The notes under the pieces: generated by a model
The model's input: only the letters and a program-made list of their open reading frames with translations
What the model was told of the DNA's origin: nothing
Databases searched by the model: none
Source of the DNA: Magnetococcales bacterium
GTDB lineage: Bacteria > Pseudomonadota > Magnetococcia > Magnetococcales > JADFYX01
Direction of reading: 5' to 3'
Assembly (NCBI GenBank): GCA_002753565.1
Contig: PEAM01000011.1
Location: 1 to 64,000 of the forward strand
DNA: 64,000 nucleotides
Shown here: positions 5,758-29,600 of the stretch, piece by piece
Numbering within the stretch: the stretch's first letter is position 1
Layout: every line of letters begins with the position of its first letter
Position numbers and translations under genes: made by a program

Positions 5758-6456
5758 CTAGGGTTTGCCGAGAGAGATCTTTGCTGTAAAGCTATAGCCG
5801 ACACCGCGATTAGAACGGATTGGTAAGGTGAAATTGCTGTTGTCTTTCACTTTTTTTCGCAGGCGATTGATGAGAACAGCGATGCGGTGTTCGTCGGAGT
5901 CATCCGAGGCGGTCTCCATCTGGTTGGCAATCTGGGAGAAGCTGACGGTTTTTCCCGGTTTGTTGGTCAATGCGGTCAGCAGGCTTTTTTCCATTCCGGT
6001 CAGGGGAATCAGGTGTCCCTCCGGAGATTGCAACTCCCAGGTAGTGGTGTTGAGTGCCCATTCATCGGAGGGAGGGGTAGCTCTGTTTAGATCGACACGG
6101 CGAAAAAGTGCGTTGATTTTAGCTTCTAACACCATGAGATCGATGGGTTTGGTCAAAAAGATATCTGCCCCGGCCTCCAGGCCAACCACATGATCTTGAG
6201 TACTGTTCAGAGAGGTTAAAATAATGATGCCGGTATGGGAATCATGGGTACGAATCTGTTTGGCAATGCGAAAACCATTATCTTGCTCCAACATGACATC
6301 GAGGATAATGACTGTTGGCTCCTGCTTATGGTTTAAGGTTTGATACATCTCCTCTTCCGTGCCCACCCCAAAGGCTTTAAAGCCACGCAGGGTCAGAAAG
6401 TCGACAATGGTCTCTCGCAGGTTGATGTTATCTTCAACGATGATCACTTTCTTCAT
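5758..6456 (-). CDS. OmpR-family response regulator
   Basis: This 232-residue regulator has a receiver at 3-118 (VEDN, Asp53 in IILDVMLEQDNG, Thr in LTSLN, Lys in LTKPIDL) and a winged-helix DNA-binding domain at about 130-228 (ending RSNRGVGYSF, the usual recognition-helix/wing signature). The ATG chosen gives the standard MKKVIIVEDN start and overlaps the stop of the upstream kinase by ATGA. A start seven codons earlier is open but would lie inside the kinase gene. It is the cognate transcriptional regulator of the kinase at 6453-8291. Its targets are unknown; the downstream NMT1-type hybrid kinase is a candidate. Confidence 0.92.
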   Translation of the reverse strand: MKKVIIVEDNINLRETIVDFLTLRGFKAFGVGTEEEMYQTLNHKQEPTVIILDVMLEQDNGFRIAKQIRTHDSHTGIIILTSLNSTQDHVVGLEAGADIFLTKPIDLMVLEAKINALFRRVDLNRATPPSDEWALNTTTWELQSPEGHLIPLTGMEKSLLTALTNKPGKTVSFSQIANQMETASDDSDEHRIAVLINRLRKKVKDNSNFTLPIRSNRGVGYSFTAKISLGKP

Positions 6457-8291
6457 GGTTTCAATCCATTTGAACAAATTGGTAGAGCGATCAGAAAGCG
6501 GCCACCCGGATCTGGAAGGGAACAGATGGTTCCGCCATGAGACTCGATGATCTCTTTGACCGCATAGAGGCCAATACCGGCTCCCAAGGTGTTGCTGGTT
6601 TCTGGGGAGCGATAATATTTTTCAAAAATCAATTGGTTCTCTTCCGGCTTGATCCCGGCTCCTTCATCTTTGACTTCAAACCTTAACTGGTCACCATCCA
6701 TTGCGGTGGTTAAGGTAATGGTGCCATGAGCCGGGGAGTATTTTACCGCATTATCCAATAAATTGGAAAAGGCGATTTTTAAAAGATGGGAATTTCCCCT
6801 CAGGGCAATAGAGCCTTTGGCCCTCTCCAAGATGATATTTCGTTGTGAATACATGGCTCTATTTTCTTGGAGCCAGTGGTCAAGAAAGGTGTTGAAGTTG
6901 ATTTTGGAAAAATTTTTCTTGATGCTGGCCGGTTCCAGGTGGTTTTTTTCCAGGCAGGAGTCAATCAGGTTGTTGATTCGCTGACAGGCAGAAAGAATTT
7001 TATTGGTCTCCCGCATCCCCATACTGCTCTCTTGGGGGAACAGAGACCGAATCAGTTGGCTGGCTGCGGTGATGACGGCGATGGGTGTTCGGAAGTCATG
7101 GGCAAGAATCGCCAAGAGATTGCGCTCTTTCTTGAGGGCAGCCTGCAGCTCTCTTTGCGCCTGTTTTCGCCAATCAACCTCCTCTTGCAACCGTTTGTTG
7201 AGTCGATAGAGGTGGGCAACCACCAAGCTGATCAGCAGGGTGATCAGCAGGGTTGGTATGATGATTTTCAGCAGTCTGGCGTAGTCGATGGGAAGGTCAG
7301 GTGCATAGATAAAATGGTTCAGGTCAACCATGGGTTCGATGATACCCAGGCTGGCATAGACATTGGCAATATGGCGCCACCGACCTTCATAGATATAACC
7401 AAACTCCACCAGGTCCGGCAGAATGAATCGTCGGCTCTGTTCTGCTTCGAACAGGATATGGTCGAGGCTCTTGTTTGGGTTGTAGTTTTGGTGGATCAAC
7501 TCGGCGATCTGTTGAGGATTGTTCAGGGCGTAGTTCCAACCTTTTTTGAAGGCGGCCAGAAAGGCTTTTGCCCTTTGTGGGTTATTATTTACCTCTTTTT
7601 CTGTGGTGAACAGAACATCGCCATAAAAGTCAATACCACCAGATCGGGCGGTAAATACCTGAAAGTCGACCCCACTCTTTCGGAGGGAAAAGACCTCGTC
7701 GGTCTGATAGATGGACATGGCATCCACCTGGCCGGAGAGCAGGCTGGTTACGTCGAAGGAGTGGACATGCTGCTTGATCTTCTCCAGCTCAACCCCTTCC
7801 AGGCGCAGATAGGCCAATATCTCTGCTGCCTGGGGTTCGACCATCATATTTTTCCCAACCAGATCGTTAACGTACTCAATGCCGCTACTCTTTAAAACGG
7901 CAACCCCATAAGGGGAGTGTTGGTAGATGGCGCTCATCACCACAACAGGAAGTCCCCTGGCACGGGAGACCACCAACTCCGAGGTGCCAATGCCGTACTG
8001 CGCCTGCCCGGAAACCACCACATTGGCCGGATCTACCCCCTCTTTGCCCTCAATCAGAGAGACATCCAGCCCGTTCTCGGCAAAATAGCCTTGCTCTATG
8101 GCGGCATAGAGGCCGGCAAATTGAAATTGATGGTGCCATTTCAGTTGAACGGTAATGGGCTCCAGGGTATCGGCAGCGTGAGTAACTGTTGGGAGAAGGG
8201 TTGAAAAGAGCAGAATGATCAGGCGGATAAAAAGGGGGCTCATCAGGGTCTCTTTGTCATGGGGGAGGAGAATACAGCATATGAAAAACAT
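6453..8291 (-). CDS. Sensor histidine kinase with NMT1/SsuA-type periplasmic domain
   Basis: This protein of about 612 residues has a signal/anchor helix, then a solute-binding domain (about 45-320; LKWHHQFQFAGLYAA, YGIGTSEL, FYGDVLFTT), a transmembrane helix (about 343-365) and a kinase core. The core has His398 in ILAHDFRTP, an N box at NLLDNAVKYS, DEGAGI and GAGIGL. There is no receiver, so it is an orthodox kinase acting on the overlapping OmpR-type regulator. GGAAG eight bases upstream supports the start given, but an internal ATG at 8243 would give a cleaner signal peptide (MSPLFIRLI, cleavage near THAADT). The sensor resembles that of the hybrid kinase at 2176-5652, so the two probably sense related small molecules. 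The ligand is unknown. Confidence 0.9.
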   Translation of the reverse strand: MFFICCILLPHDKETLMSPLFIRLIILLFSTLLPTVTHAADTLEPITVQLKWHHQFQFAGLYAAIEQGYFAENGLDVSLIEGKEGVDPANVVVSGQAQYGIGTSELVVSRARGLPVVVMSAIYQHSPYGVAVLKSSGIEYVNDLVGKNMMVEPQAAEILAYLRLEGVELEKIKQHVHSFDVTSLLSGQVDAMSIYQTDEVFSLRKSGVDFQVFTARSGGIDFYGDVLFTTEKEVNNNPQRAKAFLAAFKKGWNYALNNPQQIAELIHQNYNPNKSLDHILFEAEQSRRFILPDLVEFGYIYEGRWRHIANVYASLGIIEPMVDLNHFIYAPDLPIDYARLLKIIIPTLLITLLISLVVAHLYRLNKRLQEEVDWRKQAQRELQAALKKERNLLAILAHDFRTPIAVITAASQLIRSLFPQESSMGMRETNKILSACQRINNLIDSCLEKNHLEPASIKKNFSKINFNTFLDHWLQENRAMYSQRNIILERAKGSIALRGNSHLLKIAFSNLLDNAVKYSPAHGTITLTTAMDGDQLRFEVKDEGAGIKPEENQLIFEKYYRSPETSNTLGAGIGLYAVKEIIESHGGTICSLPDPGGRFLIALPICSNGLKP

Positions 8292-10173: not shown

Positions 10174-10671
10174 GTGATACAACGGGGTGAAACGTCGGAG
10201 GGCAAAGCGCTGCTTTTTTCCATGGGAGAGCAGTACTTTGCCTTAGCTGTTGAGGAGGTCGATCGGGTGTTGCGGGCGGTTCAGATCACCACCTTGCCAG
10301 ATGCCCCTCCCCATCTGTTGGGGTTGATGGATATGGGGGGGCGGCAGGTCCCGATTGTCGATTTGGACCGTCGCCTGGGTTTGGCTCCACGGTCCATCGG
10401 CATCGACGACCGGATAATCCTTACCAACCGACCCAAACAGATGGGTTTTTTTGTCGATGGTGTTCATGGTGTCTGCCATTTTGAGGCCGATCATTTTACC
10501 TCCGCCGAGGGGCTTTTTCCTCAGTTGGAACACTGTCTGACCGGGGTGGGAACGTGGCAAGGGAAGACAGTATTGATTTTTGACTGTCAGAGGCTGGTTG
10601 GAGATTTTATGGATCTATCCATGACCGCTCCTGAAGATAACAAGGAGTCGGTCGTTGGCGCCTCCGCTTAG
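10174..10671 (+). CDS. CheW-like coupling protein (WspB-like)
   Basis: This 165-residue protein is essentially one CheW domain (about 10-145), with the typical VEEVDRVLR, LGLMDMGGRQVPIVDL and FFVDGVHGV segments. CheW couples the chemoreceptor to CheA in membrane arrays. It starts at GTG after AAGGGTG. It overlaps the cheR-like gene by 17 bases and opens an operon with the Wsp gene content (two CheW proteins, CheR-TPR, MCP, CheA-REC, CheB, REC-GGDEF). Confidence 0.9.
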   Translation: MIQRGETSEGKALLFSMGEQYFALAVEEVDRVLRAVQITTLPDAPPHLLGLMDMGGRQVPIVDLDRRLGLAPRSIGIDDRIILTNRPKQMGFFVDGVHGVCHFEADHFTSAEGLFPQLEHCLTGVGTWQGKTVLIFDCQRLVGDFMDLSMTAPEDNKESVVGASA

Positions 10672-12121
10672 TCAAGGGGCCATGGAGCAGCTCAGTAAGG
10701 CGCTCCATGCCGACCTGGGCCTCTTTCTCTCTTCAGACCGCTGGCGGGATCTGGCACGACAGTTCAATGGGCTGGCTAAGAGCCATGGCTTTCAAGATCT
10801 CTCTCTCTGCCTGCGGTGGCTGTTGACGGAGATTCCCGCCCCCAAACGGCTGGATATCATGGCTCGGCACTTTACCATTGGCGAGACCTATTTTTTTCGG
10901 GATCGGGAGGTTTTTTCCCTGCTGGAGAAACAGATTCTCCCCGACTGTTCTCGGAACTCTGCTGACATTAGTGGTGGGGCGATTCGGATCTGGAGCGCCG
11001 GTTGCAGTAGTGGGGAAGAGCCTTATACCATGGCGATTGTGGCGGCAGAGGCCCGACGCAAAGGTCTGGCCTCTCCGGTACAGATCATCGCCTCCGATAT
11101 TAATGAGGAGGCGTTGGAGAAGGCAAAGCGGGGCGTCTATCGGGATTGGTCTTTTCGCAATCCACCTGCGGGGTATACCACCCCCTGGTTTACCGCTGTT
11201 GGTCAGAATCAGAGTCAAATTGCCGCCGAAATTCGTTCGGCAGTGGCGTTTCAGCGGATCAACCTCAAAGCGGCCCACTATCCCCCGCCGTTGGATCAGA
11301 TGGAAAGTTTGGATGTCATTTTCTGTCGCAATGTCCTGATGTATTTCGATCAACCCCAGCGGGATGCCATTGTCAGACGGTTTGTGCAACGGCTCAAACC
11401 CAACGGCTGGCTGTTGGTGGCCCCGTGCGAAATCCCGTTTATCCACCACTCAAAGCTGCGAGCAGAGAAGGTGGCAGGGGTCTCTCTTTTTCGGGCGGGG
11501 CCGCCGGAAGGGACCTTGAGCTCTTCGGTACAGAGCCTCTGGCCTCTCTCTGTTGCTGCGGGCAAACCGGCCTCTTTGTTTCTGCCGACCCTGCCGGTCT
11601 CTCCTGCTTCAGATTCCACCCCGGTCTCTACCCAACGGATGGCTGAGGAGGGAGATGAGCTCAACGGGGAGGAGCAATGGCACGCTTTGGTGGCGGAGTT
11701 GGATGGGGGAAGAGAGGTAAGTAAACAGGCAATCGAGGCGTTGGCTGGGTTGGCAAAAGAGTGGGTAGAGAAAGGTGTCTACCCTCGGGCAGAGAAGAGC
11801 TATCGGCTGTTGATGGCGGCAGATAAGCTCAACCCAGACCATTACTACCGGTTAGCCATGCTGCTGCTGGAGGGAGAGCAGATGTTGGAAGGGGAAAAAC
11901 TGTTGAAAAAAGTACTTTTTCTTGAACCTGATCATCTGTTGGCCCATGTACAGCTGGCCGCCTTGTCTCGCCGACCTCAGGAGGTTCAGCGGCATGTTCG
12001 CAACGCCCTGGCCCTGTTGGCGCCCCTCTCTGCCGACATGGAACTGCCCGATGCAGACGGATTGAACGTGGCAACTGTTCGGGCCTCTCTCCAGCACATG
12101 AAGGGGGGAGAACATGTCTGA
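10655..12121 (+). CDS. cheR: CheR methyltransferase with TPR tail (WspC-like)
   Basis: This 488-residue protein has the CheR N-terminal helical domain (to about 75), a SAM-dependent methyltransferase domain (about 80-285; GETYFFRD, IWSAGCSSGEEPYT, CRNVLMYF) and a C-terminal TPR region (about 365-470). It methylates receptor glutamates for adaptation, and the TPR part probably binds partners, as in WspC. TTG at 10655 is preferred because AAGGAG lies seven bases upstream; ATG at 10682 is the alternative. The gene overlaps both neighbours, indicating translational coupling. It lacks the CheD and CheY neighbours of flagellar chemotaxis clusters. Confidence 0.92.
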   Translation: MAPPLSQGAMEQLSKALHADLGLFLSSDRWRDLARQFNGLAKSHGFQDLSLCLRWLLTEIPAPKRLDIMARHFTIGETYFFRDREVFSLLEKQILPDCSRNSADISGGAIRIWSAGCSSGEEPYTMAIVAAEARRKGLASPVQIIASDINEEALEKAKRGVYRDWSFRNPPAGYTTPWFTAVGQNQSQIAAEIRSAVAFQRINLKAAHYPPPLDQMESLDVIFCRNVLMYFDQPQRDAIVRRFVQRLKPNGWLLVAPCEIPFIHHSKLRAEKVAGVSLFRAGPPEGTLSSSVQSLWPLSVAAGKPASLFLPTLPVSPASDSTPVSTQRMAEEGDELNGEEQWHALVAELDGGREVSKQAIEALAGLAKEWVEKGVYPRAEKSYRLLMAADKLNPDHYYRLAMLLLEGEQMLEGEKLLKKVLFLEPDHLLAHVQLAALSRRPQEVQRHVRNALALLAPLSADMELPDADGLNVATVRASLQHMKGGEHV

Positions 12122-12668
12122 AAAGGGGCTGTCATCCCGGCAAACACCATCCAAAGAGGTCTCTGACCTGCTCCGTAGGCGGGCCAGGGAGCTTGCCGAA
12201 AGCTCTCTGGCCAGACCTCAGGCAAAGGAGACCATCGAAGTGGTGGTTTTTCAGATAGATCAGGAGCAGTATGCCCTTGAACTCGCCCATATCCAAGAGG
12301 TCTATCCTCTCAAGGATTTAACCGCCATACCGGGCGTGCCCACGTTTGTTCTCGGTGTCATCAATGTGCGGGGTCGGATTGTGTCAGTTGTTGATATCAG
12401 ACAGTTTTTCGATATTCCCCATCAGGGGTTCACCAACTTGAACCGGATTATCATCCTGGAGTCGGCCCAGATGGCCTTTGGTATTCTTGCCGACGATATC
12501 AAAGAGGTTCGGACCATCCGTCGCAGTGAGATTCAACCGGCACTTCCCACCCTGACCGGTATTCGAGAGGCTTTTTTACTTGGGGTGGGGGATGACCATA
12601 CGGTTATTCTCGATGGGGCTAGAATTCTGGCCTCTCCCACCCTGATCATCGATCAAAAGGATACTTAG
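12114..12668 (+). CDS. Second CheW-like coupling protein (WspD-like)
   Basis: This 184-residue protein has an N-terminal helical extension of about 40 residues and a CheW domain (about 42-175; VVVFQIDQEQYALEL, VLGVINVRGRIVSVVDI, FGILADDIKEV). Two non-identical CheW proteins flanking a CheR-TPR gene is the Wsp arrangement. The gene overlaps cheR by eight bases. A 95-base gap with an inverted repeat separates it from the receptor gene. Confidence 0.9.
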   Translation: MSEKGLSSRQTPSKEVSDLLRRRARELAESSLARPQAKETIEVVVFQIDQEQYALELAHIQEVYPLKDLTAIPGVPTFVLGVINVRGRIVSVVDIRQFFDIPHQGFTNLNRIIILESAQMAFGILADDIKEVRTIRRSEIQPALPTLTGIREAFLLGVGDDHTVILDGARILASPTLIIDQKDT

Positions 12669-12694
12669 TTTTTTTTATTCTCCCTACCAAAAGC

Positions 12695-12726
12695 TACCAG
12701 GGATGTTCCGCTCTTTTTCCCTGGTA
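12695..12726 (+). promoter_or_regulatory. Inverted repeat ahead of the receptor gene
   Basis: TACCAGGGA and TCCCTGGTA form perfect 9-bp arms around a 14-base loop, 37 bases before the receptor ATG. There is no T-run after the right arm, so a strong terminator is unlikely. An operator, an mRNA-processing hairpin or an attenuator is possible. The role is unknown. Confidence 0.45.
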
Positions 12727-12763
12727 TATTGGATAGAACCAGCCTGGCTAGAGGAATCTGATC

Positions 12764-14389
12764 ATGTCTAAACTGACTATTTCCACCAAACTCACCCTGT
12801 TTGCCTTCACCATGATTTTTTTGTTATGCCTGGGAGGGGCGGTCTCCTACTTTCAAGTGATTCAAGGACAAAAACATTGGAACGACTACCAGCTTGAGGT
12901 GGCCAGTCGGCTGAATATTCTCCTCGATCTCAAGGCCAAGTTTGGTTATGGGGGGGCTATCCATAACTTTAAAAATCTGGTGCTGCGTGGCAGCGATCTG
13001 ACCCAGCGGAAAAAATATGCCAAACGGGCCAACGAGCAGTTGGCGGCGGTTTTGGCGGCGGCGGATCGATATCGGAGTATTACCAGCCTGACCAGAGAGG
13101 AGAAAGAGGCCATCGTGGTGGTCAGAGGGGTTGCGGATGAATATTTTCAGAACACCAAGCTGGTTCTGGTGCAGTTTGAGCAGAACCTTGCCATCCATGA
13201 GGTGGATCGAGTTGTCAAAATTGATGACAGTCCGGCTTTAAAGGCCTTTGATGTGCTGGAAGATAGTTATGTGAAACTGACAGCCCAGGAGAATCAGGGC
13301 TTTATTAATATGGTGGAGAACACCAAAATTGTTCTGGTTACCCTGTTTATTGTTCTGGTTGGCTTTGGTATGGGGTTTGGTTTTCTGATTCGCAAAGCCA
13401 TTATCTCGAAACTTACCGGGGTTGGTCAGGTTATCCAAGCCATGTCCCAAGGGGATTTGACTGTTCGGGCGACCATTCCCGATCAGCCCGACGAGATTGA
13501 TGAGTTGGCTGGCTATGTGAACCAGATGGCCAACGATCTGGTGACCGCAACCCGCCAATCCATGGAAGGAACCAGCGAGTTGACGGAAACCGCCAGCGGC
13601 ATTGCCGCCACCTCGGCTCAGCTGGCCGCCAGCTCGGCGGAGACCTCCACCACCATCGCCGAGGTGGTTGCCACCGTCGATGAGGTGCGCCATACCGCCA
13701 ACCTGACCAACGACAAGGCACAGCAGTTGATTGGTCAATCCAAACAGCTGATCCAGGTGGCACAAAAGGGTGAGCAGGCCTCTTCTAAAGCCATTGAAGG
13801 GATTCTTGAAATCAATGAGGAGATGGCCTCTATTGCCGACAGTACGGTTAAGTTGAGCGAGCAGACCCAGAATATCGGTGAAATTATCGATGCGGTTAAC
13901 GATCTGGCCGACCAGACCAATTTGCTCTCAGTCAATGCCGCCATCGAGGCCGCCAAGGCTGGGGAGGCGGGACGGGGCTTTTCGGTGGTTGCCCAGGAGG
14001 TGAAAAGCCTGGCTGAAAAATCGCGGGAGGCTACCAGTCAGATCCGAACCATTCTCAACGATATCCAAAAAGCCACCAGTATGGCTGTCATGGCTACCGA
14101 ACGGGGTGGAAAAGCGGTAGATGTTGGGGTGGCGTTAAGCCGGGAGTCCGGCAGTACCATCACCTTGCTCAAGGCCAGCGTCGAGGACTCCTCCATGGCG
14201 GCGGAACAGATTGGTGCCTCCAGTCAACAGCAGTTTGCCGGGATGGATCAACTGGTGACCGCCATGGAGAATATCAAAGATGCCACCGCCCAGAATGTCG
14301 ACGGCGCCCGACAACTGGAACATGCGACCCAGTCATTGGATGGTCTCAGTCGCAACCTTAAATCCATCTCCCAGCAGTTTCGGATCTAA
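12764..14389 (+). CDS. Methyl-accepting chemotaxis protein (WspA-like)
   Basis: This 541-residue receptor has TM1 (about 9-31), a periplasmic helical domain (about 32-183) containing [19 protein letters not shown]2 (about 184-206), HAMP (about 208-262) and a signalling domain. The hairpin tip reads [18 protein letters not shown], followed by [21 protein letters not shown]. There is no C-terminal CheR-docking pentapeptide. It should assemble with the two CheW proteins and CheA to signal an envelope or surface cue; the ligand is unknown. Finding a single receptor inside the operon fits an alternative-cellular-function system rather than flagellar taxis, though a role in taxis cannot be excluded. 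Confidence 0.93.
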
Positions 14390-14427
14390 AACCCCCTGAA
14401 TGAGAACGGGCATGGAGGAGCGAGGGG

Positions 14428-16896
14428 ATGGATGAGAAAGAGCTGCTAATACGACTACGGGAGGCCTTTCGGGTAGAGTCTGAAGAGCGTCTGGCTGGAA
14501 TCGGTCGGGATCTGACCGCTCTGGAACAGGGGGCCGACCCGGAAAAGAAGATCTCGCTTCTTGAGCAGATCTATCGGGACGCCCACAGTCTCAAGGGGGC
14601 GGCACGGGCGGTAAACTATCCGGATGTCGAATCGGTTTGCCAGGCCTTGGAGGGGGTGTTGAGTGGCCTGAAACAGAGGCGTTTGCCAATCTCTTCTGAG
14701 CTGTTCGATCTAATCCATGGTACGGTAGAGTTCATTGAAGGGCTGTTGGCAGACAACCCAGAACACTCGACCAAAGACTCCCATGAGAGGGTTTGCCATT
14801 GGGTGGACAGGTTGGAGGCTGTTTCACAGGGTAAAACGGTGGCTCCTCCTTCTCGGGTGGTGGCTGATGACCCCAAGCAACCTCTCCCTTCTTCGGCTGC
14901 ACCCTCTGCCGACAGGGTGGCGGAAAATCCCCCTCCAAACCAGGTTGAGGTTGAGAGTCCGGTTGCTAAAGGGAGGGCCGATGAGCTGTCTGAAGAGACC
15001 CAGGCCGGTGCCGATCCTGCCCCCGTACCCCAACCCACTCCGGCTTTGGCTGTGGCGGTTTCGACGGTTGCCCAAAAGAAACAACCCAAGCAGCCTCCCA
15101 AGCAGGCGGAGGTCAGTCGAGTTCGGGTTTCGGCGGATAATCTGGACAGGCTGTTGCGAAAAGCCGAAGAGCTGATTGCACTAAAGTTGGCTGGTCATCA
15201 ACATTTGAAGCAGCTTAAGGAGTCTTGCCGGGTTTTTGATGTCTGGCATCGAAAATGGTCCGAAGCCGAACCGGCCTGGCGGAACATTCAAAAAAGGGAG
15301 GGGGCAAACGAACCGTCCCGTTTTGGAAATGGGGCAGGGTCTCTCACCACCTTTGAGGGGTTTTTGGCCTGGAACCGGACCTTCATGAAGGAGCAACATC
15401 GGGATGTCCGCGCCATGACCAAAGATCTGGATACCAGCCAGCGTGGTCTGGATCGGATGGTGGATGACCTTCTGGAGAGCGCCAAACAGCTGATCATGCT
15501 GCCCAGTTCGACGGTATTGGATAGTTTTCCCCGGATGGTCCGCCAGATCGCCCGTGAACAGGAGAAAAAGGTCAACTTTGTGGTGGAAGGTCAGGAACTG
15601 GCTATTGATCGGCGTATTCTGGATGAGATGAAAGATCCCCTGCTGCATCTGCTGCGCAATGCGGTGGACCATGGTATTGAACATCCCAAGCAGCGGGAAA
15701 AGGCGGGTAAACCCCCCGAGGGAACTCTTCGCATTAAAGTGAGCCAGTTGGATGGTGATAAGGTCGAGATTGCCATCGAAGATGATGGCCGAGGTCTGGA
15801 CCTGGAGCAGATTCGGGCCAGTGCGCAAAAAAAAGCGATCATGACTGCCTCGGAGTTGGCTGCTCTGGATGTGGAGCAGACCATCGATCTGATTTTTCAT
15901 TCCGGGGTGAGTGCCGCGCCCATCCTGACCAATATTTCCGGTCGGGGATTGGGGATGGCGATTGTTCGGGAGCGGGTGGAAAAGTTGAGTGGCTCCTTGC
16001 GGGTGCAGAACCGCCCTGGCAAGGGGTTGGTTTTCACCATCCGCCTGCCCATCTCTCTCACCACCTTTCGGGGTGTGATCATCCAGACGGCGGGGGAGAA
16101 GTTTGCCATTCCCAGCGCCCAGGTGGATCGTGTTCTACAGGTCTCGCGGGATAGCTTGCGGATGGTGGAAAATCGGACCACCCTCTCCTACAATGGTAGA
16201 CCGTTGGCTGTGGTTGATCTGGCCAGGGTATTGGGTCTCTCCGGAGCCAATAGCCAGATGGAGACGAACAACAGCTTGCGTATTGTGGTGCTCAATAGTG
16301 GCTCTCGTCGGCAGATCGGCTTTTTGGTGGCGGATATCCTCGAAGAGCAGGAGCTGTTGGTCAAGGGGTTGGGCAAACAGTTGCGGCGGGTGAAAAATAT
16401 CTCTGGGGCGGCTATTTTGGGCAGTGGGCAAGTGGTTCCGGTTCTTCATGTCAAAGATCTCATGATCCGGGCTGTCATGGCCCCGGATCTTTCGGTTGCC
16501 GTCTCTACCCTTGCGGAGTCTGCCGAGCAGAAGCCGACCAGAATTTTGGTGGTGGAGGACTCCATTACCTCCAGAATGTTGTTGAAAAATGTGTTAGAGG
16601 CGGCAGGCTTTCGGGTTACTACTGCTGTTGACGGGATGGAGGGGCTTACCAGCCTTAAAACCTCGGAGGTGGATCTGGTTATTTCGGATGTCGAAATGCC
16701 ACGGATGAACGGCTTCGAGATGACGGCTGCCATCCGGGCTGATGAACAACTGGCCCATACCCCTCTTATTCTCATGACCAGCCTCTCCTCTCAAGAAGAT
16801 CGGGAGAGAGGGGTCGATGCCGGGGCCAACGCCTACCTGATCAAGAGTCACTTTGATCAGACAATCCTGATTGAGACCATTGGACGTCTGCTGTGA
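14428..16896 (+). CDS. cheA: Hybrid CheA histidine kinase with C-terminal receiver (WspE-like)
   Basis: This 822-residue protein has an N-terminal HPt domain (His53 in DAHSLKGAARA), a Pro/Ala-rich linker (about 135-220), a dimerisation helix region, HATPase (NAVDHGIEHPKQR, EDDGRGLD, GRGLGMAI), a CheW-like domain (about 545-680) and a receiver with Asp754 in VISDVEMPRMNG. CheA fused to a receiver is the WspE/FrzE layout. The receiver may act as a phosphate sink or tune phosphotransfer to CheB and the REC-GGDEF protein. It overlaps the cheB gene by four bases (GTGA). Confidence 0.94.
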   Translation: MDEKELLIRLREAFRVESEERLAGIGRDLTALEQGADPEKKISLLEQIYRDAHSLKGAARAVNYPDVESVCQALEGVLSGLKQRRLPISSELFDLIHGTVEFIEGLLADNPEHSTKDSHERVCHWVDRLEAVSQGKTVAPPSRVVADDPKQPLPSSAAPSADRVAENPPPNQVEVESPVAKGRADELSEETQAGADPAPVPQPTPALAVAVSTVAQKKQPKQPPKQAEVSRVRVSADNLDRLLRKAEELIALKLAGHQHLKQLKESCRVFDVWHRKWSEAEPAWRNIQKREGANEPSRFGNGAGSLTTFEGFLAWNRTFMKEQHRDVRAMTKDLDTSQRGLDRMVDDLLESAKQLIMLPSSTVLDSFPRMVRQIAREQEKKVNFVVEGQELAIDRRILDEMKDPLLHLLRNAVDHGIEHPKQREKAGKPPEGTLRIKVSQLDGDKVEIAIEDDGRGLDLEQIRASAQKKAIMTASELAALDVEQTIDLIFHSGVSAAPILTNISGRGLGMAIVRERVEKLSGSLRVQNRPGKGLVFTIRLPISLTTFRGVIIQTAGEKFAIPSAQVDRVLQVSRDSLRMVENRTTLSYNGRPLAVVDLARVLGLSGANSQMETNNSLRIVVLNSGSRRQIGFLVADILEEQELLVKGLGKQLRRVKNISGAAILGSGQVVPVLHVKDLMIRAVMAPDLSVAVSTLAESAEQKPTRILVVEDSITSRMLLKNVLEAAGFRVTTAVDGMEGLTSLKTSEVDLVISDVEMPRMNGFEMTAAIRADEQLAHTPLILMTSLSSQEDRERGVDAGANAYLIKSHFDQTILIETIGRLL

Positions 16897-17984
16897 TTAC
16901 CGTTTTAATAGTGGATGACTCCCTGACCAGCCGGGAACAGTTGAAAATGATTTTAGAGAGCGATGCCGCCATCCAGGTGGTCGGTATGGCGGTTGATGGT
17001 CATGATGCCCTGGCCCAACTGGCCACTTGTCAGCCCAATCTCATCTTGATGGATATCCAGATGCCCGGCCTGGATGGAATTCAGACAACCCGAGAGGTGT
17101 TGGCCCACTACCCCATCCCCATTGTCATCTGTTCTGGTGTGGTGGGAACAGAGGAGAATTTTCTCTCCTTCCAGGCCATTGAGATGGGGGCTGTGGCGGC
17201 GCTGGCTAAACCGCCCGGGCTGGGCCATACCGATTTTAAGACCTCGGCAAAAGAGATCATCCGCATGGTCAAGATTATGTCCGAGGTACCCATTATCTGC
17301 CGGGGTCAATCCCGATTCTGGCCTGCCAAGCCGCGGGATCTTCCCCCTACCAAGGCGCGCACTACCCTCTCCAGCCAGGTGGAGAAGGTGGGTGACGGTC
17401 GTCGCTTCAAAATAGTCGCCATGGGGGCTTCAACCGGTGGTCCTCCGGTACTGAAAACCATCCTCTCCAAATTAAAGCCCACTTTTCCGGTCCCTCTGGT
17501 CATTGTTCAGCATATCTCCTTGGGTTTTTTGGATGATATGGTGCGCTGGTTGGGTCAGGAGGTCTCTCTGCCCATTCATATCGCCACCCACAATCAGATC
17601 TTAAAACCGGGAGAGGTCTATTTTGCCCCCAACGATAGCCATATGTCGGTCAACCATGGTCGGGTGCGTCTCGATAGCATAACTCCCAAGGAGTATGGCC
17701 TGCGTCCGGCTGCCTCCTATCTGTTTCGTTCGGTGGCCAAAAACTATGGATCTCAGGGGGTGGGGTTGCTTCTCACCGGAATGGGCTGTGATGGATCGGC
17801 TGAGTTGAAGTTGATACGGGATGCCGGTGGCATCACCTTTGCCCAGAGTCGGGAGAGCTGTGCGGTTTTCGGCATGCCGGGTGAGGCGATCAAACGCCGG
17901 GCCGCTACCCATATTCTGGCTCCTGAGGAGATTGGGGTTGTTCTCAATATGATGGCTCAACAACAAGGGACGGGAAAAAAATGA
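16893..17984 (+). CDS. cheB: CheB methylesterase response regulator (WspF-like)
   Basis: This 363-residue protein has a receiver (Asp54 in [11 protein letters not shown]) and a CheB methylesterase domain (about 168-355) with the catalytic triad Ser180 in GASTGG, His207 in VQHISLG and Asp300 in TGMGCDGS. It removes methyl groups (or deamidates Gln) from the receptor, giving adaptation. The GTG start overlaps the cheA stop, and the stop overlaps the next kinase gene by ATGA, so three genes are translated as a coupled unit. Confidence 0.94.
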
Positions 17985-20900
17985 CGGAGATCTTGATTGT
18001 TGAAGATAGCCTGACGCAGGCCATACGGCTGGAGTATCTGCTCCAAAAGCAGGGATACCAAGTGGTTAAGGCCAGTAATGGTGTGCAGGCACTGGAGGCT
18101 CTCCAAAGAACGAACCCGTCCCTGGTTATCAGTGACATCACCATGCCCGAAATGGACGGTTTTACCCTGTGTGGTCAGATTAAAAAAAGCCCCCAGCACC
18201 GTGGCCTGCCGGTTCTGCTTCTAACCAACCTGTCGGACCCGCTGGATATTATTCACGGTCTGAACGCTCAGGCTGATGGCTATGTGACCAAACCCTATGA
18301 TGATGACTTTTTGTTGGAACGGGTTGCCCACTATCTCAACCAGCCAGCGGAGGTTCGTCTGGCCTGTCAAAAGGTGGAAGAGCCTCTCACCATCGAATTT
18401 TCCGGTCAGACCCACACCATTCAGGCGGGTCGCCAGCAGATTTTGAATCTTTTTCTCTCCACCTACGAAAACTCTCAAATTCAAAATCGTACTCTGGTTC
18501 GCAATCAGCGGGAGATGAAAACCCTCAACGAAACCATCTCCTCCAGTCTCAAACAGCTCTCTTCTTCCGAGGAGCGGTTTAGAAGTTTGGTGGAGACCAT
18601 TCCCGATATTGTCTTCAAAATCGATGCGTCAGGCCATTTTACCTTTCTGAACGAGGCGGTTGAGCTGTTGGGCTTTGATCAGGGTGATTTGCTTGGTGAA
18701 CATTTCAGCAAAATCATCCACCCCTCCGATCTGCAGAGGGTGAGCCGTAACCCAACACCCGCTGCCCATCCGGATGGGGCAGAGGGTGAACTGCAGCGCT
18801 ATTTTAACGAAAGGCGAACCGGAAAACGGATGACCTCGGGCTTGGAGCTGTTGCTGCAATCCAAAAACAGCGGGGAGGGGCTCTCTGGGGCTACCCAGGA
18901 GGGCTGCTATGTGGAGGTCTCCAGCTCTGGTCTCTATAATAGAGGCCAAGGAGAGAGTAGTGAGGCGGATGAGTATATCGGATCTGTAGGGGTGATCCGA
19001 GATGTCACTCAACGCCGGGAGATTCAACTGGCCCTGGAGCAGGAGCGGGTTTTCCTGGAGACCCTGATCAACGCTGTTCCGCTTCCGGTGGTTTTTAAAA
19101 GTTTTGCCGGTCAAATCAAGCTGACCAATCAGGCATTCAACCACTTTTTTGATCTGCACCAAGAGGCCGCTCTGGAGAAAAACTGGAGCCAGTTTCTCGA
19201 CCTGGAGTGTGCGCCTCTCCTGGAGGAGCGGGATCGTCGCTTTGCAGCCCAACAGACCCTGGACCGAGACAACTATGAACTGACCTTTCATCTGGCCGAC
19301 AAAAAACAGAAAACCGTTCGTGTTACCTTGGCAAAATCCCGAGACTTGTCGGGTAATCTCCACGGTATTATCGCTGTTTTGGTGGATATTACCGACCATA
19401 AGGAGGCGGAGAGAACCATCCAGGAGGCCCGTGTGGTTGCCGAACTGATGGCAGAGAAAGCCAAAGGGGCCAACCAGGCCAAGAGCGATTTTTTAGCCAA
19501 TATGAGCCATGAAATTCGCACCCCCATGAACGCCATTATCGGCATGAGCCATCTGGCTCTGCAGACCGACCTGAATCATAAGCAGAAGGATTATGTCGAC
19601 AAGATCCATTTTGCTGCCAACTCCCTGTTGGGTATCATCAACGATATCCTCGATTTTTCCAAAATTGAAGCAGGGAAAATGGAGATGGAGTCGGTCCCTT
19701 TTCAGCTTGGGGAGGTGCTGGATAATTTGGCCAACCTGATTACCGTCAAAACTCAGGAGAAGGGGGTGGAGCTGCTGATTGGCACCCCGGATAATGTCCC
19801 TGACGGACTGATTGGTGACTCCCTGCGACTGGGGCAGATTTTAATTAATCTGGCCAATAATGCCGTCAAGTTTACCGAGGCTGGTGAGATTGTTGTCCGA
19901 GTGGAGAAAAAAGCCCAGAGTGAGGGTCAGGTTACCCTGCTGTTTTCGGTGAAGGATAGTGGCATCGGTATGACTGAAGAGCAGATGAACAAGCTGTTCA
20001 AATCGTTCAGCCAGGCCGACGCCTCTACAACCCGTAAATATGGTGGTACCGGGTTGGGTTTGACCATCAGCAAGAAGATCACCGAAATGATGGGGGGGGA
20101 GATCTGGGTTGAGAGTGAATTGGGCCAGGGGAGTACCTTTTTTTTCACGGCCGATTTTGCGCTCTCCGATAATCAACTTGAGCTTGGTGTGACCCCATCG
20201 GTGGATCTGAAAGGGGTGTCGGTCTTGGTGGTGGATGATAGTCCGGCTGCTCGAGAGATTTTGCATCAGTTGGCTAAAAAGCTCTCTTTTCAGGTTAAGC
20301 TGGCGGCCAGTGGTGAGGAGGCTGTCGAGCTGGTGTGTCAAGCCGATCAACAAGGAGAGCCGTTTCAGTTGGTGTTGATGGATTGGCAGATGACCGGAAT
20401 AGATGGGATTGAGGCCAGCTATCGCATTCAATCCGACCCCCACTTGAGCAGCCCGCCCAAAGTGATCATGGTAACCGCCTATGATCGAGATGTGATGTTG
20501 CAACGAGAGGATCGATACAAGTTCGACAGCGTCTTGACCAAGCCGGTCTCGGCCTCCTCCCTGCTGGACGCCGCCATGGAGGTCTTGGGGCATGAGAGAA
20601 GATCGTCTGGTGAACGGGGCAAGCGGGATCTGGGCCTGGATGCGGTTCAGGCCATTCGAGGGGGGCGGGTCTTGCTGGTGGAAGATAATGAAATCAACCA
20701 GCAGGTGGCGGTGGAGCTGTTGGAGATGGCCGGTCTGATGGTTACGGTGGCTGAAAATGGCCAGGTAGGGGTGGATTGGGTCAAAAAGGGGGCGTTTGAT
20801 GTGGTGCTGATGGATATTCAAATGCCGGTTATGGACGGCTATTCCGCCACCCAAGAGATCCGTAAAAACCCAGACAACTCCCACCTTCCCATTATTGCCA

Positions 20901-21721
20901 TGACAGCCAACGCCATGGCGGAAGATCGAGACCGGTGCCTGGCTGTTGGCATGAATGACCATATCGGCAAGCCAATCGACCCGGCAACCATGTACGAAAC
21001 CATCCGCAAACATTTGAAGATTGTCCAACCTGTCCGCCAGGCCACTCTCAGTGATGCTTTAGAGGTGAGCGTTGTTCCCAAACGCCAGGATCAACCAACA
21101 GAGGTGGTTTTACCCGAATCGTTGTATGGAATAGATAGGGAGTCTGGTCTACGAAACGTAGATGGTAACCGAAAACTCTATTTAAAGGTTTTGAAGGGTA
21201 TTTATAGTAAATACCACGATATCTCCCAACAGATGCAGCAGGCTTTGTCTGAGGAGGAGATGGCTATCCGGTTGGCGCATACTTTTAAGGGCGTTTGTGG
21301 TACCATTGGTGCTAAGAGCCTGCAAGAGATTGCCCTCAACCTGGAGAGCGGAATCAAGCAGCATGATGATCCGCTCATCAAAGAGAGTCTTGCTGCTCTC
21401 TCCCAGGAGGCCGAAAAAGTCATGGAGGGGCTGGCGGTTCTGTTCCCGGCCGAGGAGCCTCATCAAGGGGAGCAGGCATCAGGAGAGTCGGTACCCTTTG
21501 ATCGGGAGCTGCTGAATACCATTTTGGACAGATTGTCTCATCAGCTTCAGGAGGGGGACTCGGATGCCATTGAGTTGGTGGGAGAGGTCAAGAGAATAAT
21601 AGGGCAATCTCCCCTGTTGAATGATATGGTGACCCTGGCGTCTCAGATTGATGAGTATGAATTTGAAATGGCCCTGGAAACTTTGGAACAAATCGTGGCA
21701 AAATTGGATCTTGGTGAATAG
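17981..21721 (+). CDS. REC-PAS-PAS hybrid histidine kinase with two receivers and HPt
   Basis: This 1246-residue cytoplasmic protein has an N-terminal receiver (Asp52 in [12 protein letters not shown]), two PAS domains (about 197-345 and 360-475), HisKA with His510 in NMSHEIRTP, HATPase_c (NNAVKF, DSGIGM, GTGLGL), two more receivers (Asp near 800 in [10 protein letters not shown] and Asp near 944 in [10 protein letters not shown]) and HPt (His1100 in HTFKGVCG). No transmembrane helix is seen. An N-terminal receiver makes it a likely downstream acceptor of the CheA. It sits between cheB and the REC-GGDEF gene, a position empty in standard wsp operons. It may link the chemosensory array to the second-messenger output. 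Confidence 0.93.
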
Positions 21722-21726
21722 CTGAT

Positions 21727-22665
21727 ATGTTATCTGAAACAGATAAAAAACCGAAGATACTGGTGGTTGATGATGAAAAGGTCAACATCGATGTCTTGGT
21801 GGGTTTGTTAAAGCCCCACTATAAATTGGTGACGGCAAAAAGTGGTGATAAGGCCCTTAAAAGGCTGGAAAAGCTACCTCTTCCTGACCTGATCCTGCTG
21901 GATATCATGATGGCTGACATGGATGGCTATGAACTCTGCCGCCAGATCAAGGAGAATGTGGCGACTCGTGATATCCCCATTATTTTTGTTACCGGCAAAA
22001 CCTTGGAGCAAGATGAGGCCAAGGGGTTTGAAGATGGGGCGGTGGACTATATCACCAAGCCCTTCAGCCCGACCATTGTACTGGCTCGGGTTAAAACCCA
22101 TGTCGACTTGAAGAAAAAGAGCGATAAACTTAAAAGTTATGCGGTGCTGGATGGTCTTACCGGTATCCCCAATCGTCGCCGTTTTGATACGTTTTTGCAT
22201 CAGGAGTGGGAACGCTCCAAGCGCTACGGCCATGTCATCTCCCTGCTTCTTATGGATATCGATTTTTTTAAACGATACAACGACCACTATGGCCATGCAG
22301 AGGGGGATGAGTGCCTGAAAAAAATGGCTCGGATCATCTCACAGACCATGCCTCGCAGCATCGACCTGGCTGCTCGCTATGGGGGGGAGGAGTTTGTCTG
22401 TGTGATGCCTGAAACCGATAGTACTGGCGCTAAGGCTGCCGCCCAACGGGCGTTGGAGATTGTTCGGGAGAGTAAAATTCCCCATGCTAAATCCTCTGTT
22501 GCCAAATATGTCACCATCAGCATTGGTGTTGCCTCATGGGTTCCTACCCTCGATTGCCAATCCTTGGCGTTGATTGAAGCGGCGGATAAGCAGTTGTACC
22601 GTGCCAAAGAGAAAGGCCGTAACCAGCTCTGTGTTGAGAAAAATGGATTTTCAAGCCATGGATGA
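21727..22665 (+). CDS. REC-GGDEF diguanylate cyclase (WspR-like)
   Basis: This 312-residue protein has a receiver (Asp59 in LILLDIMMADMDG, Lys in TKPFSP) and a GGDEF domain with the active-site motif GGEEF at 219-223. RSID (Arg210, Asp213) lies five residues upstream, matching the RxxD inhibitory c-di-GMP-binding I-site. It should make c-di-GMP from two GTP when phosphorylated and be feedback-inhibited. REC-GGDEF is the WspR output in Wsp systems. The gene starts five bases after the hybrid kinase stop and overlaps the next gene. Confidence 0.94.
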   Translation: MLSETDKKPKILVVDDEKVNIDVLVGLLKPHYKLVTAKSGDKALKRLEKLPLPDLILLDIMMADMDGYELCRQIKENVATRDIPIIFVTGKTLEQDEAKGFEDGAVDYITKPFSPTIVLARVKTHVDLKKKSDKLKSYAVLDGLTGIPNRRRFDTFLHQEWERSKRYGHVISLLLMDIDFFKRYNDHYGHAEGDECLKKMARIISQTMPRSIDLAARYGGEEFVCVMPETDSTGAKAAAQRALEIVRESKIPHAKSSVAKYVTISIGVASWVPTLDCQSLALIEAADKQLYRAKEKGRNQLCVEKNGFSSHG

Positions 22666-25283: not shown

Positions 25284-26483
25284 TTAGCTTAAAAACTCAT
25301 CAATGGAGCTGACATCGGACTGTCTATTTTTTTTCACATAGCTGTAGATGCCAGCGCCGGTTGCGGCAACGGCACCCACCAGGATAACAGGTCCCCAGGA
25401 GCCAAGGCCTAATCCCAGGCCCAAGCTGAGACCTGTACCTTTCCAGAGCGTGCCCGTTGCTGCGGCTCCCTTGACAGCAGAGCTGCTGCCTGCCTTGCCC
25501 AAGAGGGCTTTTCCTGTTGTTGCGGCACCGTTGGTTGCCCCTTTGGAGAGAACCCCGGTGGATGATTGACTCAGGGCGCTTTGGGTTGTGGCACTCTTGG
25601 TGACAATGGACTTTTTAAGGGCGGTTATCCCTTGTGTGGAGGCGGCTTTGGTTGAGTTGGCTGCTCCGGCCCCTTTGATGGCGGCACCACCACCCTTGGC
25701 TGCTCCGGCTCCCTTGGTAGCAGCGGCACCTTGGGTGGCTCCCGTGCCGACCATGGCCTCTTTGGCAACCACGGCAGAAGAGGCTGCGGCTCCCCCTTTA
25801 ACCATGGTGCTTGCCATGGCCGGTTTGAGCATGATCCATTTTCCCGCCACATTGCCTGCCATGGGGGCTTTACTTAAAGTATAGGTTTTGCCAACCATGG
25901 AGGAGATCTTGCCAGAGGCGGCGACGCCATTTTGGGTTTTAAGAGCGACGATACCCTTTTCGGCGACGCCGGCTCCTGTTCCGACCGGTTTAAGAAAGAG
26001 CCAGCCGTTGGCTTTGGTGCCCATCATGGGGGCTTTCATGACGGTAAATTTTTTCCCGGCCAGGGCTGGAATTTGCGAGGCCTGATTGACCCCCTCCACC
26101 TTCATTAGAAGCAGTGAAGAGTCTGCAGCGGCGGCTCCTGCTCCTGTGGCGGCAGCGGCTCCTGTGCCCGCAGCGGCAGCAGCCCCTTTAAGTGGGGTGA
26201 TGGCCATCCACTTGCTTGCTCCCCCAATGACGGTAGGTGCTTTGCCAATGGCAATGTTTTTGCCAGCCAACCCGGAAAACTGAGCTGCCTGCCTCGCTCC
26301 CTCCAGCTTGACGGCGACCGTTCCGGCGCTTGCATCACCCAGAGGGGATAGAAAGAGCCAGTTGTTCATACCATTGCCCACTGCGGAGACTTTGCCCACC
26401 GTAAAGGATTTGCCGGCCAGACCAGAGAACTGCGAAGCCTGTGCCGCCCCTTCTACTTTTAACAACATGGTTTCTGCAAGCAT
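25284..26483 (-). CDS. mamD: MamD-like magnetosome protein with four repeats and LG tail
   Basis: This 399-residue protein starts with four imperfect modules of about 45-50 residues (cores KVEGAAQASQFSGLAGKSF, KLEGARQAAQFSGLAGKNI, KVEGVNQASQIPALAGKKF and a fourth with SSMVGKTYTLSKAP), each ending in W(L/M)xLxP-like strands. An Ala/Gly/Thr/Lys-rich linker follows (about 215-345), then a hydrophobic segment with Leu-Gly alternation (LSLGLGLGLGSWGPVIL) and a short charged tail. The module-linker-LG layout matches MamD (Mms7), a magnetosome-membrane protein tightly bound to magnetite. The LG segment is shared with Mms6 and MamG and probably mediates self-assembly in the membrane. It is cotranscribed with mamF. 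Confidence 0.88.
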   Translation of the reverse strand: MLAETMLLKVEGAAQASQFSGLAGKSFTVGKVSAVGNGMNNWLFLSPLGDASAGTVAVKLEGARQAAQFSGLAGKNIAIGKAPTVIGGASKWMAITPLKGAAAAAGTGAAAATGAGAAAADSSLLLMKVEGVNQASQIPALAGKKFTVMKAPMMGTKANGWLFLKPVGTGAGVAEKGIVALKTQNGVAASGKISSMVGKTYTLSKAPMAGNVAGKWIMLKPAMASTMVKGGAAASSAVVAKEAMVGTGATQGAAATKGAGAAKGGGAAIKGAGAANSTKAASTQGITALKKSIVTKSATTQSALSQSSTGVLSKGATNGAATTGKALLGKAGSSSAVKGAAATGTLWKGTGLSLGLGLGLGSWGPVILVGAVAATGAGIYSYVKKNRQSDVSSIDEFLS

Positions 26484-27708: not shown

Positions 27709-28320
27709 TTATTCCGTTCTGCTGACGAGGTTATGGGCGCTGTTATGGGTTAGAAGGCCCCGTGTCTCTTCTTGGGGTTGGTTCACCCCATGGTGAGGGC
27801 TGGAAAGTGGATTGCCGATGGTGGTGCTGGTGGATAAGGCTCGCGCTTCGAGGGCAAGGTTAAGCTCGGTTATTTTGGACTCATATTGGAGATCGAGCCG
27901 GTTTTGCAGGCGCTCTTTCTCCCGCTCCATCCAGCTATTGAGCTTATTGATGGCGCGCTGCTTCTCTTCGACCATCTCCTCTTCAAGTTGGGCCAGATTC
28001 CGCTTTTTGATCTGGGCAATCTCTCTCTCCATGACCATGCGCAGGATTTTCTGTTCCTGGTTGAGTTCAACCTCGATGGCTGACCACTGAAGATTTTTTT
28101 TCTCATCCAAACGTCGGCTGGCCTCTTCGAGCCGTACCTCATGCTCTCTTTTAGCCGCTTCGATACTGTGGGCCGCCTCACTTTTTTCGTTGTGGAGAAG
28201 GGATAACTCCTTTTCAAGGATATCCCGCTCTTTTCGCAGCAGGCCAAGGGTGGTGGTAATGGACTGGAAGATATAGGCAACAATGACCAGTGCGATCAGG
28301 GAAAAAAGGAAAATAAACAT
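27709..28320 (-). CDS. Membrane-anchored coiled-coil protein
   Basis: This 203-residue protein has one N-terminal transmembrane helix (about 3-22) and a long charged coiled coil (about 25-160; rich in Glu, Lys, Arg and Leu heptads), then a polar, probably disordered tail. No family is recognised. Its placement between the LG-PilZ gene (77 bases upstream) and the Mms6-like gene, on the same strand, suggests a scaffold or tether in the magnetosome membrane. Coiled-coil proteins are also known in other magnetosome clusters (Mad proteins of deltaproteobacteria), but homology is not claimed. Confidence 0.75.
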   Translation of the reverse strand: MFIFLFSLIALVIVAYIFQSITTTLGLLRKERDILEKELSLLHNEKSEAAHSIEAAKREHEVRLEEASRRLDEKKNLQWSAIEVELNQEQKILRMVMEREIAQIKKRNLAQLEEEMVEEKQRAINKLNSWMEREKERLQNRLDLQYESKITELNLALEARALSTSTTIGNPLSSPHHGVNQPQEETRGLLTHNSAHNLVSRTE

Positions 28321-28397: not shown

Positions 28398-29600
28398 CTA
28401 TTTTCTGTCTAGCCGGGTGATGAGTTCAATCCATTTTATCCAACCATCGGGGCCGTTCTCGAAGGTGGAGAGGACAATGACAGCATCGCCCTGTTTTTGA
28501 CGATGAAGCGTAAAATCTGTGACCGTCAGAGTGATGTTCTGCTCTGGAAACAGCAGTTGATGGACCGTTTTTACTTTATACTTGGGGGCATGAAAGCGGA
28601 TGCCGTGCATGGAGACATCTCTTGCGTTGCTCTGGAACAATTGGCCATCAATCTGCACACCCTTTACCACCAATGCCCCTCGGGGTACGGAGATTCGCAG
28701 GGCAAAACGGCGATCATACATCAGAGGGCGGGAGACGCGCTTTTTTGTGCGGTTGTCGCTGGCATGATAAACAGGGGTTTGGTGCGGATTTTTGGTGCTC
28801 TTTTTTGACGAAGCTGGGCGATAGTTGAAAGGGGGGGATGGCTGCACCGTCGCACGATATCCCACATCTGGCTTGGGGTCACCCGGTTTTAACCAGGGAG
28901 ATGATTTTGTCAAGGGAGTTGCCTCTGGTGATGAAGATTTGGTCTCTGGTTTGAGGGAGGGTGAGTGGCTTGGTCGGGGGGCGGATGCTGTACGGGAGGG
29001 GCTGTTTGTTGATTTTCTGGCGTGGGGTGTCACCACACCAAGAAGGGCACCTGCCAAGATGACCGGCACCAGAAAACCTGTACCAAAGCCAACCCCTGCC
29101 ACCGCTACCGAAGGCAAAAGACCGGCTGGACCGGCATAGCCGATGAGGCCGGGCAGGGTGGACCCCACACCAAGAAAGGTTGTGCCTGCCAAGAGGGTTT
29201 TGAAAGAGCCGGATGATCCTGTGGCGGTGTAGCCCGGCAGAAGAGTCACCCCCCCCTTTCCCTTGCCTGCAGCGCCACTGTAGGCTTTCCATTTTGGGGA
29301 GGATAAAAAGCCCAGGCCGGCTTTTCCCTTGCCTGTTCCTCCAGCGGCCCCCAAGAGGCTGTTTTTATCTGGGGTGGGAAGAGTCCCCAGCCCCGCACTC
29401 CCTTTACCTGTGCCCCCTATGGCCCCCAAGAGGCTGTTTTTATCTGGGGTGGGAAGAGTCCCCAGCCCCGCACTCCCTTTGAGAGTCCCGACAGCCCCCT
29501 TCCCCCCTGCAAACGGGGTTAAGGGTGTCATAGGGGGGGGTATCTCTGCTGTGGCAAAAGAGAAGCTTTGGGTCATTTGATAGGATAGTTCATTACTCAT
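28398..29600 (-). CDS. LG-repeat magnetosome-like protein fused to a PilZ domain
   Basis: This 400-residue protein has a Gly-rich N-terminus with tandem repeats of the kind KGSAGLGTLPTPDKNSLLGA (about 35-110), then a hydrophobic Gly-rich stretch (about 145-195; LPGLIGYAGPAGLLPSVAVA, then VGFGTGFLVPVILAGALLG) resembling the LG membrane segment of Mms6/MamD. A Ser/Pro/Lys-rich linker follows (about 200-295). The C-terminal PilZ-like domain (about 300-400) has DRRFALR and DVSMHG, matching the RxxxR and (D/N)xSxxG motifs that bind c-di-GMP. The ATG at 29600 follows GAGAG and gives a clean start; the 30 codons upstream in frame look unrelated. It leads the magnetosome block. I know no described magnetosome protein with a PilZ domain. 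Function is inferred as c-di-GMP-dependent control at the magnetosome membrane. Confidence 0.8.
   Translation of the reverse strand: MSNELSYQMTQSFSFATAEIPPPMTPLTPFAGGKGAVGTLKGSAGLGTLPTPDKNSLLGAIGGTGKGSAGLGTLPTPDKNSLLGAAGGTGKGKAGLGFLSSPKWKAYSGAAGKGKGGVTLLPGYTATGSSGSFKTLLAGTTFLGVGSTLPGLIGYAGPAGLLPSVAVAGVGFGTGFLVPVILAGALLGVVTPHARKSTNSPSRTASAPRPSHSPSLKPETKSSSPEATPLTKSSPWLKPGDPKPDVGYRATVQPSPPFNYRPASSKKSTKNPHQTPVYHASDNRTKKRVSRPLMYDRRFALRISVPRGALVVKGVQIDGQLFQSNARDVSMHGIRFHAPKYKVKTVHQLLFPEQNITLTVTDFTLHRQKQGDAVIVLSTFENGPDGWIKWIELITRLDRK
29346..29480 (-). repeat. 60-bp perfect direct repeat in the LG-PilZ gene
   Basis: The 60 bases at 29346-29405 recur exactly at 29421-29480 (period 75 bp), encoding two copies of the GSAGLGTLPTPDKNSLLG module. 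A third, diverged copy (AGLGFLSSPKWKAYSGAAG) lies further 3' in the gene. The perfect identity indicates recent duplication or gene conversion. Confidence 0.9.

Follow-up and report, generated by a model that had tools for sequence, protein, structure and literature searches.

A PilZ-domain protein with a predicted membrane anchor and a candidate coiled-coil partner, encoded near mamD in a Magnetococcales genome

The stretch of DNA analysed here (the window; 64,000 nucleotides) comes from a Magnetococcales bacterium and carries a gene for a PilZ-domain protein, which is followed by a gene for a coiled-coil protein, an Mms6/MamG-like gene and mamD. These genes and one further gene that may bear on their function are the following.

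28398..29600, minus strand: coding sequence of 400 amino acids; Gly-rich N-terminus, putative hydrophobic hairpin, polar linker, C-terminal PilZ domain
27709..28320, minus strand: putative partner gene, 77 bp downstream of the PilZ gene; coiled-coil protein of 203 amino acids with an N-terminal TM helix
26583..27101, minus strand: Mms6/MamG-like LG protein with the true LG segment GTIWKGTGVSLGLGLGLG (NCBIfam MamD, 5e-12; Mms6, 1e-10)
25284..26483, minus strand: mamD (NCBIfam MamD, 295 bits; cut-off 100)
21727..22665, plus strand: REC-GGDEF diguanylate cyclase with a GGEEF motif, beyond mamD (context; a candidate link)

The PilZ gene starts with an ATG at position 29600 and ends with its stop codon at 28398, exactly as in the preliminary description; a longer reading frame that extends to 29690 merely uses the most upstream ATG. 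We regard it as a real gene because full-length orthologues with the same layout and about 36% identity are present in three Magnetococcales MAGs of the same genus (G008, G009 and G010). A promoter and terminator scan at the locus yielded signals without a clear excess over shuffled sequence. The distance from the PilZ gene is about 1.3 kb to the mms6-like gene and about 1.9 kb to mamD, and a gap of about 600 bp separates the coiled-coil gene from these two genes, which may form a separate transcript. Three copies of mamK and several MamD-like genes are found in the genome from which the window is taken (contigs C10, C86 and C88). The diguanylate cyclase gene is the last of a Wsp-like chemosensory cluster on the plus strand (10174-22665; CheW, CheR, CheW, MCP, CheA-REC, CheB, hybrid histidine kinase, REC-GGDEF) that ends about 2.6 kb from mamD. 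At 6453-8291 of the minus strand, an NMT1/THI5-like substrate-binding domain is fused to a histidine kinase.

Within the PilZ protein the following features were located.

29325..29479, minus strand: tandem repeat of 75 bp (25 amino acids), KGSAGLGTLPTPDKNSLLGAxGGTG, in the Gly-rich N-terminus
29019..29198, minus strand: uncharged hydrophobic segment of 60 residues (135-194), probably a double-TM hairpin that leaves the PilZ domain in the cytosol (KD19 maximum 2.2; the flank towards the PilZ domain is rich in K/R)
28404..28715, minus strand: PilZ domain, residues 296-399, six-stranded barrel plus C-terminal helix (AF2, hhalign and Foldseek; Pfam sub-threshold)
28695..28709, minus strand: RxxxR motif, RFALR, residues 298-302; both arginines unchanged across the four full-length orthologues
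28602..28619, minus strand: [D/N]xSxxG motif, DVSMHG, residues 328-333; S and G invariant, D/N position occupied by D, D, N and D in the four orthologues

The four full-length orthologues compared are the window protein and its counterparts in G008, G009 and G010. That the C-terminus is a PilZ domain with both c-di-GMP motifs had been proposed in the preliminary description, and the assignment is confirmed by several lines of evidence. A HMMER search did detect the Pfam PilZ family (PF07238), but scores of 12.9 bits for the full-length protein and 16.3 bits for the isolated domain lie below the gathering cut-off of 22.5 bits, a curation threshold, and fold and motifs were taken as deciding membership. 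All seven of the family members searched matched PilZ independently, if weakly (best E 0.0086), and had no other family in common. In hhalign, the alignment of the family profile with eight further PilZ domains from this genome had a probability of 92% (E 7e-7) and spans 45 columns that include both motifs. At the level of sequence, the family profile retrieved only chance matches from the PDB, and a comparison of folds was therefore needed. The AlphaFold (AF2) model of the C-terminal domain (pLDDT 86.4) is a six-stranded barrel followed by a C-terminal helix, and PilZ structures, among them MrkH, YcgR, BcsA, Alg44 and MapZ, make up nearly all of its top 34 Foldseek matches in the PDB. These matches mostly have a probability of 1.00, with TMq values of up to 0.63; the best E value is 1.3e-3, so that no individual match reaches 0.001 and the case for PilZ lies in their agreement.

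When the C-terminal 120 amino acids were shuffled, the combination of RxxxR and [D/N]xSxxG appeared in 0.35% of cases; among the 170 open reading frames of the window, the present one alone contains it. Both motifs are present in the window protein and in four relatives, the key positions being intact in the orthologues and in the G040 protein; they are wholly or partly lost in three others, namely the HU-PilZ proteins of G008 and G005 and the Mariprofundus protein. Among the best-conserved stretches of the family is also a C-terminal helix, WIELITRxD, which lies outside the motif region. The C-terminal domain is a genuine PilZ fold equipped with both c-di-GMP motifs, and the protein is likely to act as a c-di-GMP effector. 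Compared with the PilZ family at large (PF07238; YcgR, Alg44, BcsA, MrkH), with which it shares the barrel, the C-terminal helix and the motif pair, the domain is only 12-18% identical to its best matches and has the WIELITRxD tail of its own.

By contrast, the claim that the N-terminus is an LG segment of the Mms6/MamD type was not borne out. This part of the protein consists of a Gly/Lys-rich region and a single uncharged hydrophobic stretch of 45-60 residues with basic residues on its flanks. The NCBIfam models for MamD, Mms6 and MamG, which clearly find the neighbouring genes, gave no match to the protein at E<=1, and blastp of the N-terminus did not reveal LG homology either. Two HMMs, one built from six LG proteins encoded in this genome and one from the four N-termini, failed to find each other's members at E<=10 among 1,053 open reading frames. 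In hhalign the N-terminus and the LG segment were aligned at 6%, with one resemblance of 22 columns (GxGxxxxPxxLxGA). The GLGLGLG core that precedes GP in the true LG neighbours (SLGLGLGLGxxGP) is absent from the corresponding segment, GFGTGFLVPVILAGALL. We thus reject an Mms6/MamD-type LG domain at this position. A Gly-rich hydrophobic segment is what the protein shares with Mms6, MamD and MamG, and genes of this group are its neighbours in the window; it differs from them by the absence of detectable homology and by the opposite topology that its PilZ domain implies. The full-length AF2 model contains no confident structure before residue 300. Based on its length and flanking charges, the hydrophobic stretch may form two TM helices, with the PilZ domain on the cytosolic side.

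The C-terminal domain defines a family of eight loci in seven genomes. It is preceded by the Gly-rich membrane segment in four cases, by an HU-type DNA-binding domain (PF00216) in two, by DUF2934 in one and by a signal/TM segment in a Mariprofundus MAG, and these domain partners are unusual for PilZ proteins. In the two HU/IHF-type fusions (L027:1351-2091 and L029:1030-1740) the motifs are partly lost. A coiled-coil gene follows the family gene at seven of the eight loci (six of seven if the window is left aside), the exception being G005; two of the three relatives with degenerate motifs have kept this partner. At the loci whose PilZ protein includes a membrane segment (the window, G008, G009, G010 and Mariprofundus), the coiled-coil protein carries an N-terminal TM helix; at those with a soluble PilZ protein (HU-PilZ in G008, DUF2934-PilZ in G040), the helix is missing. 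This match in anchoring (five versus two cases, no exception) has a chance probability of about 1 in 21, the four orthologues not being independent. What emerged, then, is a small PilZ family, seen only in genomes that carry magnetosome genes, whose members mostly have a coiled-coil gene next to their own; no description of it was found in the literature searched.

Clear members of the family are present in six of 48 Magnetococcales genomes, compared with 46 of 48 for mamK, and the family is therefore not a core part of the magnetosome. As nearly all genomes of this order possess mamK, co-occurrence statistics cannot discriminate there. Among 78 Zetaproteobacteria, the only member is that of the Mariprofundus MAG, one of four genomes with mamK; the resulting co-occurrence (1/4 mamK-positive versus 0/74 mamK-negative genomes) is suggestive only. 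A sample of 399 genomes of the phylum contained no further lineage with the family. In the collections searched, all members belong to genomes with mamK, and the family is so far limited to magnetotactic lineages in this sense. In Mariprofundus (L048), the PilZ/coiled-coil pair is divergent from mamQ, which is followed by mamR, mamB and mamS; mamB exceeds its model cut-off (432 bits, cut-off 350), while mamQ is just under it (246, 250) and mamR (79, 100) and mamS (149, 200) are below. On the other hand, the contigs with the family gene in G009, G010, G040 and G005 contain neither mamK nor mamD, and those of G008 are too short to judge. The family gene of G010 adjoins dsr genes.

Taking these data together, we favour the view that the protein is a membrane-anchored c-di-GMP effector which acts with its coiled-coil partner and most likely tunes magnetosomes, their chain or a related state of the envelope, a tentative reading to which we assign a probability of roughly 0.45. 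The Gly-rich hydrophobic hairpin would serve as the protein's anchor in the inner membrane or in the magnetosome invaginations of that membrane. Beyond a polar linker, the cytosolic PilZ domain would bind c-di-GMP via RFALR and DVSMHG, which may alter its docking on the dedicated, TM-anchored coiled-coil protein encoded directly downstream; c-di-GMP would thereby switch a membrane-bound scaffold. Its most likely use in these magnetotactic cocci would be to tune the positioning of magnetosomes or of their chain, or an accompanying state of the envelope. Alg44 of Pseudomonas, a PilZ co-polymerase anchored in the inner membrane, is a case in which c-di-GMP switches an attached machine. Its PilZ domain matches the present one in fold and is tethered in the way that we propose by analogy, but its membrane part is unrelated and no alginate genes were seen at this locus. 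The effector part of the favoured reading is supported by the PilZ fold, the retention of the motifs in four orthologues and the G040 protein, the coiled-coil gene at seven of eight loci and the matched anchoring; the Wsp-like cluster with its diguanylate cyclase was likewise counted in its favour. Use in magnetosomes is plausible in view of the gene data, as the family was found only together with mamK in the collections searched and the pair has mamQ-R-B-S as neighbours in Mariprofundus and the mms6-like gene and mamD in the window. Counted against the favoured reading were the four genomes with contigs free of mamK and mamD, the restriction to six of 48 genomes, the degenerate motifs of three relatives and the lack of confident structure upstream of residue 300 in the AF2 model.

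It is quite possible that the protein, again as a membrane-anchored c-di-GMP effector paired with the coiled-coil protein, serves motility, surface attachment or the envelope instead, and that the proximity of mamD is incidental. The contigs of G009, G010 and G040, the gap that may set the LG genes apart as a separate transcript and the nearby chemosensory and diguanylate cyclase genes would all fit such a role. PilZ proteins of the YcgR type act on flagella. Flagellar action has also been suggested for a PilZ protein of Magnetofaba australis IT-1 (PMC5088516). This alternative accounts less well for the restriction of the family to genomes with magnetosome genes and for the location of the pair beside mamQ-R-B-S in a different class. 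An unlikely option is that the PilZ fold serves only as a protein-docking module and does not bind c-di-GMP, as in other degenerate PilZ domains. The relatives that have lost one or both motifs, two of which retain the coiled-coil partner, and the conserved WIELITRxD helix outside the motif region are compatible with it, whereas the intact key positions in all four orthologues and the G040 protein are not what it predicts.

We disfavour as very improbable the idea that a crystal-shaping LG protein of the Mms6/MamD type has acquired a PilZ domain. The nearby mamD and true LG genes, the low-complexity N-terminus rich in glycine and lysine and a short stretch of it (GxGxxxxPxxLxGA) that resembles the LG segment speak for this origin, but neither family models nor profiles detected similarity in either direction. 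Moreover, the combination conflicts in topology: a PilZ domain can encounter c-di-GMP only in the cytosol, while the C-terminal end of Mms6 points into the lumen.

So far there have been only hints that c-di-GMP controls magnetosome formation: the genes hit in a transposon screen of M. gryphiswaldense included ones within or next to diguanylate cyclase units (PMC7676999). The window protein and its candidate partner may offer a concrete effector, with intact motifs, a putative membrane segment and genes that are sometimes located among magnetosome genes. A bolder and rather doubtful generalization is that an undescribed two-gene module, consisting of a PilZ protein with an exchangeable N-terminus and a coiled-coil scaffold and confined to bacteria with magnetosome genes in two proteobacterial classes, would place the magnetosome membrane or chain under c-di-GMP control.

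The preliminary description went too far in stating that no magnetosome protein with a PilZ domain had been described, since one encoded near mamAB has been reported in IT-1 and Magnetococcus marinus MC-1 (PMC5088516). Like the window protein, it has a C-terminal PilZ domain and is encoded in a magnetosome region of magnetotactic cocci; however, the protein that probably corresponds to the report has about 1,420 amino acids and belongs to another family, and MC-1, IT-1 and a third coccus all have its motifs intact. The possibility that the two are the same protein was rejected, as the profile of the present family found no member in G037-G039, taken as the genomes of these cocci, and the true homologue in the genome of the window lies on contig C86. 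The large protein was not found near mamK in the partial contig pieces of G008-G010 that were examined. Its homologue on C86 (1,321 amino acids; L031:1567-5532) is encoded inside a mamK/mamD cluster; RxxxR and the D of DxSxxG, both preserved in the cultured strains, are missing from its PilZ tail.
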